DNA from: Marinospirillum perlucidum
GTDB taxonomy: Bacteria; Pseudomonadota; Gammaproteobacteria; Pseudomonadales; Halomonadaceae
NCBI RefSeq assembly: GCF_003336805.1
Contig: NZ_QFWJ01000014.1
Span: 1-39,695 of the forward strand
Length of the DNA: 39,695 bases
Reading direction: 5' to 3'
Shown here: positions 8,919 to 39,695 of the stretch, piece by piece
Layout of the letters: each line of letters starts with the position of its first letter
Position numbering within the stretch: the first letter of the stretch is position 1
Notes under the pieces: generated by a model
The model's input: the letters and a program-made list of their open reading frames with translations, nothing else
The model's database searches: none
What the model was told of the DNA's origin: nothing
Made by a program: the position numbers and the translations under genes

Positions 8919-10607
8919 ATGCGCAAGCAGTTGTTGCTTCTTTTCCTGCCCTTGCTACTGCTGCTCTCCATCTCTGTGGGGGCTGCGCCTGATTTAAATC
9001 GTTTGCCTGCCGAACCCCTGGGCCGTTGGATGCAGCTCTATTCGGAAGAAAGCCACTTGAGCGTCGAAGAAGCCTACCAGCTCTGGCAAACAGGGGAGTT
9101 TGTGCCTGCAAAATCGGCCACGCCAGCCTTAGGTTTGAATGCCGATCCGGTCTGGCTGGCCCTGACCGTGGACAATACGGAGCTTGAACCCCTTCAGCGC
9201 CACTTGCTGATTGATACCTCCTGGCTGGATGCTATTCATATCTTCGTATTCCATCAGGGGCAAAAGGTTCAGACACTGACCCGTGGTGATAATTATCCCG
9301 CCCAAGGGCGTAATCTGCTGGTTACTGGCTGGGAATCTTCATTGGACTTGGCACCGGGGCAAACTACCCTGCTAATGCGCCTCAGCACCCCTGACCCCTG
9401 GGTTGCCCCCGTTTACCTGCTGGATCAGCAAGGCTTTGAAGATTTTGCCCGCATGCGGCTGTTTACCTACGGTTTGGGTTACGGTTTTCTGCTTGCCCTG
9501 ATCTTCTACAATGCCGCCTTGTACCTGGGAATCAAGGATGGCCGCCATCTGGTCTATGCCCTCTATCTGGCCAGCTTTGCAGCGATGAATTTTTCCACCA
9601 CCGGCCATGGTCTTGTCTGGCTCTGGCCGGAAGCTGTGGAGTGGCAGCGTTGGGCCCAACCCTTGTTAATGATTTTATTTGCCAGCTGCGGTCTGTTTTT
9701 CGCGATGTATTTTCTGGATATACGCCAGTATTGGACAAGTGTTTACCGGCTGGTTCTGGCTATTCTAGCCAGCGTGTGGTCGGCGCTGGTGTTGACTATT
9801 ATGACCGGCAACCAGGCTGCAGCCCTTTTGATCGCATTTAGTTTTATGGTGGTTTTTACCGTCCTGATGTTGAGCATGGGCTGGTATCGTTATCGCCAAG
9901 GGAGTGTCAGTGCCCGTTTCTACTTGATCGCCATGCTGGGGGGAACCCTGGGGACGCTTTTTACCACCCTGTCGACTTCCGGCTGGATTCCCTTTAATGA
10001 GTTCACTTTTCGGGCTGTCGAGCTGGGGATGCTGATAGAAGCAACCCTTTTGGCCTTGGCTCTGGCCTCACGGATTCGCCGTTCTCAGCAAAAGCAATTG
10101 CAGGCTGAGCAGGCGGCCAATACCGATGCGCTGACAGCCTTGTTCAATCGCCGGGCACTTTATTACTGGGCCGAAGAGCTGTGGAAGGATCCTGCCGGTC
10201 AGCTGCGACCGGTGACAGTGCTGGTGATGGACATCGATTTTTTCAAACGCTGCAACGATGCTCATGGTCATGCTTTTGGCGACAAGGTATTGCAATGGAT
10301 TGCCGGTCTCTTGACGGATAGCCTCAATGAAGGTGCCTTGGCCGCTCGTTGGGGTGGAGAAGAGTTTATTCTGCTGCTGCCGGGGCAGCATCTTGTCGAG
10401 GGGCAGCAGTTGGCCGAGAACCTCTTGCAGCAACTGCGCGAGAAAACTCTAAGTTGTGGCGAAGAGAAGGTCAGGATTACCGCCAGCATCGGGGTTGCTG
10501 AAGGTAGCCCGGGCAGCAGTGATCTGGATGAGCTGATCCATCTGGCTGATCAGGCCCTTTACCAGGCCAAGCAGGAGGGGCGCAACCGGGTGGTCTGCGC
10601 CCGTTAG
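8919..10607 (+). CDS. 7TM-coupled diguanylate cyclase
   Basis: A 562-aa inner-membrane enzyme predicted to make cyclic di-GMP from two GTP. It has a signal peptide (1-23), then a periplasmic 7TMR-DISMED2-type beta domain (~30-170). Seven membrane helices of the 7TMR-DISM type follow (~180-385), then a short coiled linker and a GGDEF domain (~395-560). The active site is GGEEF at 479-483 with the metal-binding DID at 438-440, so it should be active. The inhibitory RxxD site normally found just upstream is replaced (N470 to A473), so product feedback is probably lost. No EAL domain is present. The signal sensed by the periplasmic domain is unknown. Confidence 0.93.
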   Translation: MRKQLLLLFLPLLLLLSISVGAAPDLNRLPAEPLGRWMQLYSEESHLSVEEAYQLWQTGEFVPAKSATPALGLNADPVWLALTVDNTELEPLQRHLLIDTSWLDAIHIFVFHQGQKVQTLTRGDNYPAQGRNLLVTGWESSLDLAPGQTTLLMRLSTPDPWVAPVYLLDQQGFEDFARMRLFTYGLGYGFLLALIFYNAALYLGIKDGRHLVYALYLASFAAMNFSTTGHGLVWLWPEAVEWQRWAQPLLMILFASCGLFFAMYFLDIRQYWTSVYRLVLAILASVWSALVLTIMTGNQAAALLIAFSFMVVFTVLMLSMGWYRYRQGSVSARFYLIAMLGGTLGTLFTTLSTSGWIPFNEFTFRAVELGMLIEATLLALALASRIRRSQQKQLQAEQAANTDALTALFNRRALYYWAEELWKDPAGQLRPVTVLVMDIDFFKRCNDAHGHAFGDKVLQWIAGLLTDSLNEGALAARWGGEEFILLLPGQHLVEGQQLAENLLQQLREKTLSCGEEKVRITASIGVAEGSPGSSDLDELIHLADQALYQAKQEGRNRVVCAR

Positions 10608-10614
10608 CGGTCGT

Positions 10615-10890
10615 TTAGTAGAGTGCCTGGCTTTCCTCGACCACTTCTTTAAGCAACTCTAAAAAGAGTTCGTCTGCCGTGGTGCGATCTTCCGGATTTT
10701 CAGGGATTTTTACCAGGGTTTCGTTGGTAATGTCTTCGGCGACCTTGTCCAGCATCTTGTGATCGCCATAGTGGCGCTTGGCGATTTCCAGGGTCTGTTC
10801 CAGAGTGCCCGGTTCCAGCAGCAGCTTCTTCAGAAACTGGCGCAGTTCAGACAGGGCGCGGGCTTTGGTAATCTCGCTTGAGCTGCTCAT
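10615..10890 (-). CDS. Small hypothetical protein
   Basis: A 91-aa soluble, acidic, mostly helical protein that I do not recognise. It has no signal peptide, membrane segment or cysteine. The ATG is well supported by AAGGAG 9 nt upstream. It is divergent from gyrA, with about 190 bp between the starts, and converges with the diguanylate cyclase gene only 7 bp away. Codon use resembles its neighbours. It could be a conserved lineage-specific protein; its function cannot be inferred. Confidence 0.75.
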   Translation of the reverse strand: MSSSSEITKARALSELRQFLKKLLLEPGTLEQTLEIAKRHYGDHKMLDKVAEDITNETLVKIPENPEDRTTADELFLELLKEVVEESQALY

Positions 10891-11009
10891 AAAACAGGCT
10901 CCTTAAACTTGTTATGGCTTGGATGACATACCTTAATCTTACTGGATTTTTCGGGTTTGGGGGTAATTTCTGGCGTAAAGAAAAACAGCCTTGAGAGAGG
11001 CTGCTAACC

Positions 11010-11038
11010 ATGACCTGAGAGCGACAAAAGGGTATAAT
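11010..11038 (+). promoter_or_regulatory. gyrA promoter
   Basis: ATGACC (-35, 4 of 6) and TATAAT (-10, perfect) are separated by 17 bp. Transcription would start ~35 nt before the gyrA ATG. A small hairpin (CAGCCT / AGGCTG, 10986-11003) lies just upstream. Confidence 0.7.
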
Positions 11039-11077
11039 CCTGCCGACATCATAAAAAACTCAGAAGGACGTAGATGC

Positions 11078-13753
11078 ATGGCTGAAATCGCCAAAGAGAT
11101 CCATCCGGTCAATATCGAGGACGAGCTGAAGCAGTCCTATCTTGATTATGCGATGAGCGTCATTATCGGACGCGCCCTGCCAGACGTTCGTGATGGCTTG
11201 AAGCCGGTTCACCGCCGCGTTCTCTATGCCATGCACGAGCTCAACAACGACTGGAACAAGCCCTACAAAAAATCGGCCCGTGTTGTCGGTGATGTCATCG
11301 GTAAATATCACCCTCATGGTGATTCTGCTGTTTACGACACCATCGTGCGTATGGCCCAGCCTTTCTCCCTGCGCTATATGCTGGTTGATGGTCAGGGCAA
11401 CTTTGGCTCCATCGATGGCGACTCGGCCGCAGCCATGCGTTATACCGAAATCCGCATGGCCAAGATCAGCCACTCGCTGCTGGCTGATCTGGACAAGGAA
11501 ACCGTTGATTACGTCGATAACTATGATGGCACCGAGCGAATTCCCGAGGTTCTGCCAACCCGCGTGCCTAACCTGCTGGTTAATGGTTCGGCCGGTATCG
11601 CCGTGGGCATGGCCACCAACATTCCCCCGCACAACCTGGGTGAAGTGGTGGATGGCTGTCTGGCTCTGATCGATACACCCGAACTGACCGTGGATGAATT
11701 GATGGAGTACATCCCCGGCCCGGATTTTCCCACCGGTGCAATCATCAATGGCAAGGCTGGTATCGTCGAAGCCTATCGCACCGGCCGTGGTCGCATCTAC
11801 CTGCGTGCCAAGCATCACCTGGAGACGATTGGCAACCGTGAAGCCATCGTCTTTACCGAGATTCCCTACCAGCTCAACAAGGCACGTCTGATTGAAAAAA
11901 TCGCCGAGCTGGTCAAAGACAAGAAAATCGAAGGCATTGCCGAACTGCGGGATGAGTCCGACAAGGAAGGCATGCGCATCGTTATTGAGGTCAAAAAAGG
12001 CGAGTCACCGGAAGTCCTGGTGAATAACCTCTTTGCCCAAACCGCACTGCAGAATGTATTCGGTATCAACATGGTGGCCCTCAAGGATGGCCAGCCAATG
12101 CTGCTTAACCTGAAGCAGATGCTGGAAGCCTTTATCCGCCATCGTCAGGAAGTGGTCACCCGCCGCACGGTTTACGAACTACGCAAGGCGCGCGAGCGTG
12201 GCCATGTTCTCGAAGGTCTGGCGATTGCCCTGGCCAATATTGATCCGGTGATTGAACTGATCAAGGCTTCCCCGACTTCTGCCGAAGCCAAGGAAGCCCT
12301 CCTGGCCGAAGCCTGGAAACCCGGTCAAGTGGTGCAGATGCTGGAAAGAGCCGGTGCGGATGCCTGCAAGCCGGACCACCTGGAAGAAGGCTTGGGCTTG
12401 AGTGAAAACCAGGAGGTTTACCGCCTGTCACCGGTTCAGGCCCAGGCCATTCTGGATCTGCGCTTGCATCGCCTGACGGGTATGGAGCATGAAAAGCTCC
12501 TGACTGAATACCGTGAACTCCTGGAAAAAATTGCTGAATTCCTGGCTATTCTCGCTGATCCTGCTCTGTTGATGCAGGTGATTCGTGAAGAATTGACCGC
12601 CATTCGCAACGAATACTCCGATCCACGTCGCAGTGAAATCATTGCCAGCCGTCAGGACTTCTCCATGGAAGACCTGATTGCTGAGGAAGACATGGTCTTT
12701 ACCCTGTCCCGCAGTGGCTATGCCAAGACCCAGCCGCTGAGTGACTATCGTGCCCAGCGCCGTGGTGGTCGCGGCAAGTCGGCCACGGCCATGAAAGACG
12801 AGGATGTAATCGAGCACCTGCTGGTGGCTTCGACTCACGATACCGTGCTGCTCTTTTCCACACGCGGCAAGGTCTACTGGCTGAAGGTCTATGATGTGCC
12901 GGTCGGTAGTCGTGGTTCCCGTGGACGGCCTCTGGTCAATCTCTTGCCTCTGGAAGAAGGCGAATTGATTACCACCATCCTGCCGGTGCGCGAATACCGC
13001 GAAGACTATTTCGTGTTTATGGCCACCGCACGTGGCACCGTCAAGAAAACCAGTCTGGATCAGTTCTCGCGTCCACGCTCCAGCGGTCTGATTGCCCTGG
13101 ATCTGGATGAAGGTGATCGTTTGGTTGGCGCGGCCATTACCAATGGCCAGGATCATGTCATGCTCTTCACCAGCGCGGGTAAAGCCATCCGCTTTGAAGA
13201 GGGTCATGTTCGTGGCATGGGCCGGACTGCTCGCGGTGTAAGGGGGGTCAAGCTGCCCGAAGCCGCCGAAGTCATCAGCCTGATCATTCCCCGCTCAACG
13301 GTGATTGATGCCGAGAGCGAAGGTGAAGAGGGTGCACAGGAAGCAGTGACCGAACAAACAGCTCCGGTCGTGGATGCCGATCGTCCAATCTACATCCTGA
13401 CTGCTTCGGAAAACGGCTATGGCAAGCGCACCCGTCTGCAGGAATTCCCGCTACGCGGTCGCGGTGGCCAGGGTGTCATCGCCATGCAGATGAGCGAGCG
13501 TAACGGCCAGCTGGTTTCTGCCATTCAGGTTGAAGATGGCGAAGAAATGATGCTGATCACCAACCGGGGCACGCTGGTCAGAACCCGGGTGGATGAAGTC
13601 TCCACTACCTCGCGTAACACCCAGGGGGTCACCCTGATCCGCCTGAATGACGAGGAAAAACTGTGCGGCACGGTTCGTGTTCAGGATCTGGCCGATGACG
13701 AGGTGGATGACGAAGAAATCTCCGAAAACGGGGAGGAAAGCAGCGAAGAATAA
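11078..13753 (+). CDS. gyrA: DNA gyrase subunit A
   Basis: The breakage-reunion subunit of DNA gyrase (891 aa), which introduces negative supercoils with GyrB. Numbering matches E. coli at the N terminus: the catalytic tyrosine is Y122 ([10 protein letters not shown]), and the quinolone region is GDSAVYDT with S83 and D87, the susceptible-type residues. The C-terminal beta-pinwheel carries the GyrA box QRRGGRG. An acidic insert ([12 protein letters not shown] and on) interrupts one blade, and the tail is very acidic. AGAAGGA lies 9 nt before this ATG, so the longer open frame starting at 10991 is rejected. The gene ends at a strong terminator. Confidence 0.98.
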
Positions 13754-37429: not shown

Positions 37430-37517
37430 GGAGGAGTGGCCGAGTGGTCGAAGGCGCACGCCTGGAAAGTGTGTATACGGCAACGTATCGAGGGTTCGAA
37501 TCCCTCCTCCTCCGCCA
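37430..37517 (+). tRNA. tRNA-Ser (anticodon GGA)
   Basis: An 88-nt class II tRNA with CCA encoded. The acceptor GGAGGAG pairs with CTCCTCC, the D-arm reads GGCCGAGTGGTCGAAGGC, and the anticodon loop is CTGGAAA (GGA, reading UCC/UCU). The long variable arm of serine tRNAs (TACGGCAACGTA region) and the T-loop GGTTCGAATCC are present. It sits at the edge between housekeeping DNA and an AT-richer island, the usual place for element integration. Confidence 0.97.
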
Positions 37518-37530
37518 CAAACAAGATTTA

Positions 37531-37557
37531 AAGCCCTGATTTTTCAGGGCTTTTTTT
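37531..37557 (+). terminator. tRNA-Ser terminator
   Basis: A perfect 9-bp stem (AAGCCCTGA / TCAGGGCTT) with loop TTTT runs into T7 and then ATGCC. It could also end transcripts from the minus-strand gene at 37571. Confidence 0.92.
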
Positions 37558-37570
37558 ATGCCTGAAAGAA

Positions 37571-38281
37571 CTAGTCCCCCAATTGGTCCCCCAAATTTAA
37601 TTGGGTTGATGTTTCCTTGTCTTCTGTTAAGTCTTTTTGGTTTTCAAGAAGACTCTGTACTATCTTGATTTTGTTGTTAAGGCTATCCAGCTTTTTGGCC
37701 TCAAGGATGAGCATATCTTCGCCTTCATCTAATTCAGCCTGAATAGCCTTGATTTCTTCTTTTGCCTCTGCAATTACTCCCAGTGCCTGGTCTGTGCAGC
37801 CTGAGGCTGGCTCTTTTTTCTTGGGTCTTGCAGCCAGCCTATCTTTCATTCTCTGTTTCTTCTCAGCTTCCTGTCTAAGCTCTTCTTTGATCTGGCTTTT
37901 GTAGTTCTTCAGGCTACTGATCATTTCCGATACTACTTCAGGTATGGTCGATTCCTGCTGCTTGGCTTCACTTCTTAGCTTGGTTCTGGTGCTTTTGCTG
38001 ACTTCAATCTGAACGAGTTGTTTTCTGGATTTTTTGCTACGAGTTTTGTGAACCCTCCAGGCCAGTTCCATCAATCTTCTCAGCTCTTTGAACTCAGGTT
38101 CTCCGATGCTGTTTGTCTTTCCTTCTTTTATCTGGATTAAAAGCTGAGTGGGGGCTAGTAGATGAGCTGGATGAAGAAGTGGGTGGTTCTTTTTCTGCAG
38201 GTACTTGATGACCCATTGAGCTTGATCTTGGTTCTGAGGATCTACCCAGCTGGTGAAAGGAATGGTGTTTGATTCGCTCAT
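37571..38281 (-). CDS. Hypothetical ribbon-helix-helix / coiled-coil protein
   Basis: I do not recognise this 236-aa protein. Residues ~88-128 fit a ribbon-helix-helix DNA-binding fold: strand LVQIEVSK, helix RTKLRSEAKQQE, then helix IPEVVSEMISSL, preceded by a very basic stretch. Residues ~129-155 and ~168-218 are predicted coiled coil. The last residues repeat LGDQLGD, from a DNA direct repeat GTCCCCCAA (37574 and 37586). AGGAG lies 6 nt before the ATG. Its promoter overlaps the palindromes at 38317-38359, so autoregulation is likely. Base composition is AT-richer than the core genes. It could be a plasmid- or element-maintenance factor. Confidence 0.7.
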   Translation of the reverse strand: MSESNTIPFTSWVDPQNQDQAQWVIKYLQKKNHPLLHPAHLLAPTQLLIQIKEGKTNSIGEPEFKELRRLMELAWRVHKTRSKKSRKQLVQIEVSKSTRTKLRSEAKQQESTIPEVVSEMISSLKNYKSQIKEELRQEAEKKQRMKDRLAARPKKKEPASGCTDQALGVIAEAKEEIKAIQAELDEGEDMLILEAKKLDSLNNKIKIVQSLLENQKDLTEDKETSTQLNLGDQLGD

Positions 38282-38316
38282 ATCGGTCTCCTGGCAGCAG
38301 ATTTTTTATCAGTATA

Positions 38317-38359
38317 ACACGTAATATTACAAAAAATGTTACATGGTAATGTTACGTGT
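38317..38359. promoter_or_regulatory. Nested palindromic operator region
   Basis: ACACGTAATATTAC (38317-38330) and GTAATGTTACGTGT (38346-38359) form an inverted repeat matching at 13 of 14 positions. The left arm contains a perfect 10-bp palindrome, GTAATATTAC, and ATGTTACAT lies in the centre. On the minus strand TATACT, a likely -10 of the 236-aa gene, lies directly after the left arm. The set looks like several half-sites for one dimeric regulator shared by the divergent genes. Confidence 0.7.
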
Positions 38360-38411
38360 AATGGTTATTTTTATTTGCAATATATATACCTATGCAGATG
38401 ATGCCAATAAT

Positions 38412-38431
38412 GATATTTTGGACAAAATATC
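38412..38431. promoter_or_regulatory. Inverted repeat just before the winged-helix gene
   Basis: GATATTTT-GGAC-AAAATATC is a perfect 8-bp inverted repeat ending 6 nt before the possible GTG start at 38438. It may be an operator, or an RNA stem covering the ribosome site, since no other good ribosome site is visible. Confidence 0.5.
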
Positions 38432-38437
38432 GGTGCC

Positions 38438-39670
38438 GTGGTGGCCACTATGTGGAAAAAATTATTAAGGTTTCCCTCTCCAGAAAAGCTATCGTACCAA
38501 GCTCGAATTTTGATGTTGCGCTTGGCGTTTGTGTACGGTGATTCTTTGATGTCTTCAAGCGTGCAGGCTTCAATGAGCGAGCTATCCAGGTCGCTTCATG
38601 TTCACCGAAACAAGCTTGGACCACTGATGAAGGAGCTTTCAGATGCAGGGTTGATTAAATTCATACCGGCACCTTCTACTGGCAAAAGAGGTCGGCCTTT
38701 GCAGTGTTTTACCTTCGCTCAGCTGACCAAAAAGTTCATTCGGGATAGCAAGGATGTTTGTCCGAATTTTAATGAAGCTTTAGAGAAGTTGGAGTTACAT
38801 GCACCTAGAGGGAGAGAAGGCGGGCCTTTTAAGAATTCAATGGAGTTGAACAAGGGACAAAGCCTTGTCCTTGCAGTCCTGCTGGCTCATGCCAATGACT
38901 TTGGCACGGTTACTGGTTTGCCTAAATCAAAGATTGTCTCTTTGACCGGTCTCAACATGGGTAGCGTCACTCAGTACCTGAAGCAGCTAAAAAAAATAGG
39001 CTATATTCGTAAGACCTACTCTGGCTTTAATGACAGTCTTATTTTTGGCCGCCAAGTCAGCGTGTACTGCTTGTCTTTGGATTTGGTTTTTGATCCAGGC
39101 AAAAGAAAAAAGTATCGGTTCTCATATCTATTCGATACGAAGCTCCGTGCACCACCAGTGTGCCAACTGGATGTCTTTCACGACTTTCCCTTAGTGGACT
39201 CCGATGTCCAGCTAATGAAGCAACTGAGTAGGCAGCTTACACCGCTTGGACTACGCAATCCCCGCAAGCTAGAAATGATGGGGTTCCACCTTGCATCTTT
39301 GGCGTCAATTTTGATTAGCCGAAACACTTCCTGGTCAGGCATCTTGTCGCCAAATGAATTTGAATTGACATTAGACCGACTTCTTGGCGAGTTGGGAGAA
39401 GAGCTAGATGCCGTTATTCAAAAAACGGGCGTGGATCGCACATTAAGTAGGAGAGAAAAAGCTGAGTGGCTTTCCGAGGGAAGTCATTTTATTTCTAACT
39501 TGGCAGAAAAATATCGTCAGCCTAAGCCCAAAATGATTTTGAAGCTGATCGTTTTGTTAAATGCAGCTTGCTGTAGTGGTTCAATGATTCTGGACACCAG
39601 CGTAGGTGGTAAGATCACCACCATAAACGAGGTGTCTGATGACCAGAAAACGACGTTCCTTTACTCCTGA
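38438..39670 (+). CDS. Double winged-helix protein, 3' end replaced by IS
   Basis: I do not recognise the family of this 410-codon frame. Two winged-helix-like domains are visible: ~40-95 (MSELSRSLHVHRNKLGPLMKEL, then GLIKFIPAPSTGKRGRP) and ~139-212 (LPKSKIVSLTGLNMGSVTQY with GYIRKTYSG). The layout suggests a DNA-binding regulator or an element replication factor. The start is GTG 38438 or ATG 38450; neither has a clear ribosome site. The native frame probably ends at about codon 378. From 39572 the DNA looks like the left end of an IS3-family element, so the last ~32 residues are IS-derived and the protein is probably truncated. Codon use is AT-richer than in the core genes. Confidence 0.7.
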   Translation: MVATMWKKLLRFPSPEKLSYQARILMLRLAFVYGDSLMSSSVQASMSELSRSLHVHRNKLGPLMKELSDAGLIKFIPAPSTGKRGRPLQCFTFAQLTKKFIRDSKDVCPNFNEALEKLELHAPRGREGGPFKNSMELNKGQSLVLAVLLAHANDFGTVTGLPKSKIVSLTGLNMGSVTQYLKQLKKIGYIRKTYSGFNDSLIFGRQVSVYCLSLDLVFDPGKRKKYRFSYLFDTKLRAPPVCQLDVFHDFPLVDSDVQLMKQLSRQLTPLGLRNPRKLEMMGFHLASLASILISRNTSWSGILSPNEFELTLDRLLGELGEELDAVIQKTGVDRTLSRREKAEWLSEGSHFISNLAEKYRQPKPKMILKLIVLLNAACCSGSMILDTSVGGKITTINEVSDDQKTTFLYS

Positions 39671-39695
39671 GTTCAAGCAGGAAGCAGCCAGCCTG
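39572..39695 (+). mobile_element. IS3-family insertion sequence, left end (partial)
   Basis: The sequence begins TGTAGTGGTTCAATGATTCT, starting with TG as IS3-family ends do. The OrfA start codon follows 67 nt later, a usual distance. A small hairpin GGTGGT/ACCACC lies between them. The element continues past the window, so the right end and target duplication cannot be seen. The exact boundary is inferred. Confidence 0.7.
39639..39695 (+). CDS. IS3-family transposase OrfA, N-terminal fragment
   Basis: The frame reads MTRKRRSFTPEFKQEAASL up to the window end, the characteristic start of IS3-family OrfA proteins, which bind the IS ends by a helix-turn-helix. In IS3 elements OrfA is joined to the OrfB integrase by a -1 frameshift; that part is outside the window. 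It overlaps the end of the interrupted winged-helix frame in another phase. Confidence 0.88.
   Translation, partial: MTRKRRSFTPEFKQEAASL

Follow-up and report, generated by a model that had tools for sequence, protein, structure and literature searches.

The window analysed here is the complete contig C6 (39,695 bases) of the 24-contig genome of Marinospirillum perlucidum. We conclude that the right end of this window is probably the left attachment end (attL) of a decayed island inserted at a tRNA-Ser(gga) gene, and that two divergent genes at this end, one encoding a predicted ribbon-helix-helix (RHH) protein and the other a winged-helix (WH) protein, probably form the control head of a replication-excision module. 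The copy is decayed, as an insertion sequence (IS) lies in the WH gene and the genome has no YagK-type replication gene. The evidence comprises the attL features, an integrase gene with matching arm repeats and a near-repeat of the tRNA end on a second contig (C1), the conserved divergent layout in related genomes, and the absence of both genes from other genomes of the genus.

A probable island edge and its proposed counterpart on contig C1

The tRNA-Ser(gga) gene, the integration target, extends from 37430 to 37517 on the forward strand (ARAGORN; Rfam tRNA, 59.5 bits), and the host genes reaching up to it encode a nitroreductase and a YiiD-type thioesterase. The guanine-plus-cytosine (GC) content drops across the tRNA from 55.1% (positions 1-37429) to 43.3% (37518-39570), a value below all 177 equal-sized host windows (lowest, 49.3%), which bears out an initial annotation, made from the sequence alone, that the DNA becomes AT-richer right after the tRNA. 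The proposed attL core, CTCCTCCTCCGCC, lies at 37504-37516 (+). It is followed by a terminator-like hairpin with a T run (37530-37558, +), read from the sequence, and by twin direct repeats CTAGTCCCCCAATTGGTCCCCCAA, 12 bp apart (37571-37594, +), which are proposed to be integrase arm sites. The stop codon of the RHH/coiled-coil gene (37571-38281, -; 236 amino acids) overlaps these repeats.

Diverging from the RHH gene is an open reading frame (ORF) of 410 codons (38438-39670, +), in which the initial annotation had seen a double WH gene. An intact gene up to 39670 was rejected, as the left end of a multi-copy IS, presumably IS3-like, starts at 39572 and stops at the contig end (39572-39695, +). 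The final codons of the frame are IS sequence, and the WH gene proper (38438-39571, +) is therefore interrupted. Its relatives encode 428-578 amino acids, and the remainder of the gene was not found elsewhere in the genome. Contigs C1 and C22 also end, on the right, in copies of this IS, two more in all, and the IS end explains the break at the window end. The initial annotation had seen no integrase on this side of the tRNA. None is indeed visible in the window, and one is present on C1; however, the apparent lack of anything to the right reflects an assembly break, since the window is the whole contig.

Neither gene is core at this site: no RHH or WH gene was found in the seven other genomes of the genus, two of which are less than 90% complete, and other genes stand next to the tRNA, on its 3' side, in the five of these seven genomes whose tRNA-Ser flank was inspected.

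On contig C1, a tyrosine integrase with an arm-binding domain is encoded at C1:8530-9732 (PF00589, E = 6e-17, plus PF13356 and PF22022). The 24 bp of the twin repeats occur elsewhere in the genome only at C1:9760-9783 by BLAST, 27 bp from the integrase start codon. At C1:9892-9904 (+), 108 bp past these arm repeats, the proposed right attachment site (attR), CTCCTCCTCAGCC, has the orientation of the tRNA 3' end and agrees with it at 12 of 13 bases, and none of 500 base shuffles gave a local alignment as good. With at most one mismatch, the 13-mer was found once in the window, at the tRNA, and twice in C1:1-18000. The contig runs on to holA, which directly follows the same tRNA in the sister genome G004; hence, C1 holds the chromosomal DNA expected downstream of the tRNA. 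We infer the link between C6 and C1 from the matching attachment parts and from the layout of the relatives described below.

A second copy of the tRNA-Ser 3' end at C1:11380-11412 (-) has its own terminator, lies 1.5 kb beyond the proposed attR and adjoins a CAP-domain gene; it perhaps marks an earlier insertion or arose by inversion. As the right end of the island, this copy was rejected, being inverted with respect to the tRNA and located beyond the integrase and the arms, and the copy at C1:9892 was preferred for its orientation, as in the complete element of genome G303, and for a spacing close to that of G303. In addition, C1 encodes an N6/N4 methyltransferase and a C-terminal piece of a type I restriction subunit, possible defence cargo of the island. 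At C1:765-2974, in a part that possibly belongs to the island, a methyltransferase gene is convergent with an unclassified gene of 295 codons, and the two are perhaps a type II restriction-modification pair.

In G303, a homologous pair is located at tRNA-Ser(gga) in an element of approximately 31 kb, arranged as tRNA core, twin repeats, RHH (-), WH (+), YagK, cargo, integrase (-), similar twin repeats and, after approximately 117 bp, 14 bp that repeat the tRNA end exactly. The element of G042, at tRNA-Leu, likewise has an integrase (-) at its far side and an exact 14-bp repeat. This layout is that of the window plus C1. A near-repeat of the tRNA end and an integrase, to be looked for downstream according to the initial annotation, were both located on C1 in the arrangement of intact relatives. 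Twin repeats lie 3' of the tRNA in eight of nine tRNA-linked relatives (by eye); those of G248, at tRNA-Ser(gga), read AGTCCCCCAATTAGTCCCCCA, nearly as in the window, and those of G303 differ. The scan of the G303 cargo (16 of 22 listed ORFs, pooled with five C1 proteins) resulted in type I restriction-modification, McrBC, Mrr, RadC and UmuC-like (IMS) genes, and McrBC, Mrr, RadC and IMS were assigned to G303 because the five C1 proteins scanned alone showed none of them.

Homologues of the pair reside at tRNA-Ser, tRNA-Pro, tRNA-Leu and other sites, of which some adjoin what we take, from the protein sequences, to be mutS and yicC. Near-identical RHH/WH/YagK genes occupy different sites in L065, where the pair lies beside an integrase at a yicC-like site, and in L066, where it lies at tRNA-Ser(gga) with an apparent IS remnant in the place where the integrase could be; this suggests that integrase modules have been exchanged. 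Another decayed element was observed in G021 (locus L083), with a short RHH remnant (9771-10085) convergent with an integrase gene (10149-11432), no WH match, and an integration site that is presumably yicC-like.

The divergent RHH gene and its partners in related genomes

A two-sequence WH profile was searched against 390 genomes of the order and matched 17 of them, the window's own included, at 21 places. We fetched 18 of the 20 outside places, leaving out weak ones in G224 and G285, and one locus from another search (L014) was added; the resulting 20 loci are the window, L014 and L056-L073. The RHH gene was sought in them with an iterated profile. As a result, an RHH homologue was found beside the WH gene, and divergent from it, in all 20 loci, which are partly non-independent (the maps of L068 and L069 are the same, and those of L065/L066 and L071/L072 nearly so). 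A YagK match (PF11726, also described as inovirus Gp2-like) follows the pair in 16 of the 19 mapped loci, and the contigs of the other three end just past the WH gene. AlpA was recognised near the pair in eight of these 19 loci with one query. The tandem YagK-type genes of L061 (7364-8773) include a second copy without the H-x-H motif described below.

The order RHH (-), WH (+), AlpA, YagK recurs in genes PVE_P0090-P0093 of the Pseudomonas veronii 1YdBTEX2 plasmid LT599585. This was the only match of the WH proteins among plasmids, and the other plasmid searches gave none. No phage relative was found for the L059 WH protein, nor a viral-contig relative for the WH proteins of the window and L064. 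Four Alloalcanivorax/Alcanivorax contigs also carry the pair, although they probably come in part from the same genomes as other loci. Contig L080, from a metagenome-assembled Alcanivorax, encodes a WH protein identical to that of L071 and ceases to match its sister contigs 58 bp past the WH stop codon. Positions 7910-17906 of L080 hold a load that by eye resembles metal-resistance and transposase genes, a second case of insertion just behind the WH gene.

The association extends beyond the pair. Of the 390 genomes, 50 gave a match to the RHH profile and 56 to PF11726; split RHH or YagK matches were counted once, with second pieces dropped and coordinates entered by hand. YagK lies within 6 kb of 37 of the 60 RHH places, divergent in all 37, and RHH within 6 kb of 38 of the 75 YagK places. 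The co-occurrence of the two proteins' homologues, raised in the initial annotation, was confirmed for the pair and is matched by the divergent RHH-YagK neighbours. In the further RHH loci with YagK, AlpA and/or YagK follow RHH more or less directly.

In one genus (g50), the four mapped RHH places look resident: L171, L172, L173 and L177 have RHH relatives of approximately 300 amino acids between ordinary genes, with no YagK nearby, and the neighbours in L173 and L177 are common to both (by eye). The g50 gene is possibly a domesticated copy. The L171 protein has distant matches (below 60% identity) in 26 plasmid records, 14 of them from Klebsiella, and those listed are annotated as hypothetical.

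Proposed regulation and competing explanations

Proteins of the RHH family have, from the N-terminus, a W..YL part, then a basic MK.AW...R stretch, then the RHH itself and finally a tail, which many of them have in a long form. The RHH_1 and RHH_3 Pfam families match a few members weakly, and a PDB profile search with the family places chains of MatP, CopG and Arc among its top matches. The 236-residue protein is likely to have the ribbon-helix-helix fold, for which the support comes from the family and not from this one sequence by itself. Two helix-turn-helix (HTH) regions were seen in the WH protein, both below threshold (residues about 44-79 and 136-193), and its family shares two HTH regions and a variable C-terminal part. 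Regarding the YagK proteins, the H-x-H motif is present in 16 of 17 aligned members (by eye) and two tested proteins match the replication-protein family PF23343, which we take to fit an HUH replication protein (Rep).

The two genes flank a putative control region with GTAATATTAC and GTAATGTTAC, and the inverted repeat at 38317-38359 reached a score of 11, equalled by three of 500 dinucleotide shuffles (one of 30 in a smaller test). The divergence of an RHH/coiled-coil gene and a WH gene from a palindromic region, noted in the initial annotation, was confirmed. The sequence GTAACGTTAC occurs in the homologous gap of L014 and L059, and the L059 gap contains tandem phased repeats.

CopG-type proteins on plasmids are repressors that control their own gene and the replication operon. 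Because the RHH gene keeps its divergent position, palindromic repeats lie in the gap and an RHH fold is likely, we propose that the protein is a repressor. The island would have entered tRNA-Ser(gga) through the P4-type tyrosine integrase now on C1. As in relatives, the RHH gene would be transcribed away from an operon of WH, often AlpA, and a YagK/YfjJ replication protein, and the RHH protein would dimerise on the palindromic repeats of the shared gap and repress both promoters. In the integrated state, AlpA (excision activator) and Rep would be kept silent by RHH; once RHH is titrated or removed, AlpA could drive excision and Rep the replication of the circle. Many sister elements lack the WH protein, which could be an accessory activator or an origin-binding protein. 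Repression of the AlpA/replication operon by RHH, with WH as an accessory, is most likely from these sequence features.

The RHH protein might instead be mainly a MatP-like DNA organiser or segregation factor, bridging element copies or preventing loss of the circle, with repression of its own gene secondary; we consider this unlikely. With one profile of the RHH family, chains of MatP take the first two places among the PDB matches (E = 0.0026 and 0.0068), in alignments that span the N-terminal W..YL part, MK..R and the RHH, and hhalign of the family with E. coli MatP gave 69% probability, E = 4.4e-5 and 18% identity. The long C-terminal parts of many members are in line with this, as is the lack of PF06303 (MatP) in all 58 own and related genomes, in which no chromosomal MatP was seen as a competitor. 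However, a wider profile ranks CopG first and MatP third (E = 0.098), none of them significant, and no MatP Pfam match is among the families listed for RHH members (25 of 47; all eight in a second set). Moreover, the constant place ahead of Rep suits a repressor equally. Due to the conflicting profiles, we describe the family as RHH proteins with a MatP-like order of parts but do not assign it to MatP.

Similarly improbable is a replication-initiation module, in which the WH protein would be the initiator that binds the repeats as iterons, RHH would set the copy number, and YagK would act elsewhere. The second WH region matches phrog_186 and phrog_270, and its PHROG matches to DnaD-like helicase loader and replication initiation families (E = 1.6e-5 and 0.0017) point this way, together with the tandem phased repeats of L059 and weak matches of four of 18 RHH members to the NCBIfam replication regulatory protein RepA (best E = 7e-4). 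Yet the best PHROG stretches cover residues 136-196 only, that is, the HTH, and no DnaD-like initiator match beyond it was found in PHROG. Among 20 further RHH loci, the WH profile finds its gene in one (L160), and the YagK-type protein itself matches a replication-protein family. A third explanation, that both genes are old chromosomal genes beside the tRNA-Ser and no island exists, could appeal to the tRNA neighbour, to the window without a visible integrase and to the resident-looking distant RHH relative of one genus; it is very improbable. The low GC content, the presence on C1 of an integrase with arm repeats and of a near-repeat of the tRNA end, and the homologues at tRNA-Pro, tRNA-Leu, tRNA-Ser and other sites all speak against it, and we rejected core genes as contradicted by the absence from the same genus.

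Several observations weigh against the preferred reading, that is, an attL end with an RHH/WH control head. At the site itself, no contig joins the window and C1, nothing of the operon beyond WH is visible in the window, and YagK (PF11726) was not found in the window's genome. On C1, the copy at 9892 has only 12 of 13 bases, below the inverted copy at 11380-11412 with 32 of 33. As to the proteins, neither reaches a Pfam or NCBIfam cut-off, in accordance with the claim of the initial annotation that the genes after the tRNA lie outside known families, and structure predictions from two-row inputs were too poor for use (mean predicted local distance difference test scores, 62 and 36). Of 18 gaps in relatives, five had no equally good shuffle among 30, whereas several were no better than chance. 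In the wider set, 37 of the 75 YagK places lack RHH within 6 kb and 23 of the 60 RHH places lack YagK within 6 kb, nine genomes of g50 among the latter; L080 continues for 10 kb past WH without YagK or AlpA. The WH match in only one of the 20 further mapped RHH loci implies that what stays constant is an RHH gene divergent from AlpA/YagK, to which WH is an addition in one branch. Finally, a class-level RHH search of 369 genomes gave matches in only two, the window's own genome and G021, the latter with a fragment without WH; because of this result, the family looks concentrated in the bacterial order of the window.

Relation to known elements

Both CopG and the CopB/RepA2-type proteins are plasmid copy-number repressors and, like the RHH protein, are RHH regulators beside a replication gene; the family differs from them in its long N-terminal part, its tail and its divergence from the replication operon. 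With MatP it shares the order of parts (W-rich N-terminal part, basic linker, RHH, tail) and, in one of two profiles, the best PDB match, whereas identity is 18%, the MatP Pfam family is not reached, and the genes are element-borne beside a Rep operon. The cryptic elements CP4-57 and CP4-6 of E. coli combine a P4-type integrase, AlpA and a YagK/YfjJ protein, and in Pfam PF11726 is named for YagK/YfjJ and PF05930 for CP4-57; these elements are not known to carry an RHH/WH pair. Plasmid LT599585 shares the gene order of the relatives; in contrast to an island, it is a 374-kb plasmid, on which three of the genes are annotated as hypothetical protein and one as transposase.

More tentatively, these MatP-like RHH proteins, divergent from AlpA/HUH-replication operons, may be a regulator family that has not been described before and serves as the common on/off switch, and perhaps in segregation, for a wide range of islands in the order that are inserted at tRNA genes and often carry defence genes; WH would be an add-on in one branch, and one genus may have retained the regulator as a resident chromosomal gene. 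In the literature searched, we found no account of an RHH/WH control module. The RHH gene can also mark decayed islands without an adjoining integrase, as in the window.

The island class is partly known. The sections covered of Zhao et al. 2025 (PMC12595487) describe I23, I44 and I55, islands of Pseudomonas fluorescens SBW25 inserted at tmRNA, and 99 related elements. Islands of the I55 class contain an integrase, AlpA, an inovirus Gp2-like protein, YqaJ, RadC, an HTH protein and defence cargo, and target an RNA gene (PMC12595487). According to the same sections, such AlpA/Gp2-like islands transfer defence genes from one bacterium to another, with transduction by a jumbo phage in at least one case (PMC12595487). 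A Pseudomonas nitroreducens island with an integrase, AlpA and an inovirus Gp2 protein is also described in the part covered of PMC7466150. The I23/I44/I55 islands resemble the element family studied here in having a tyrosine integrase at one end, AlpA and the Gp2-like gene at the other, 14-bp direct repeats of the RNA gene, RadC/YqaJ with an HTH protein, and defence cargo; they differ in their tmRNA target, against tRNA-Ser here, and their account mentions, in the sections covered, no RHH gene divergent from Gp2/AlpA (PMC12595487). Compared with the I55 class, the window's genome does have a tyrosine integrase, but on C1, which we infer to be linked; the Gp2-like PF11726 gene, not found in this genome, has matches in 16 of the 19 related loci, and the RNA-gene repeat, 12 of 13 bases at C1:9892-9904, is an exact 14 bp in G303 and G042. 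The initial annotation had suggested a control or maintenance module of an undescribed integrative element. The module is supported, with a control role that would follow from its position, whereas "undescribed" does not wholly fit a class that resembles the AlpA/inovirus-Gp2 islands of Pseudomonas (PMC12595487, sections covered).

Many related islands, several with defence genes, have the conserved pair in front of their replication gene, and the pair offers a concrete way into the question of how these islands are turned on and off. In the sections covered, PMC12595487 names AlpA as the putative activator of intY in I55 islands and names no repressor; the RHH protein, whose gene lies divergent from the replication gene in all 37 neighbouring pairs, is a direct candidate for the repressor of such islands.

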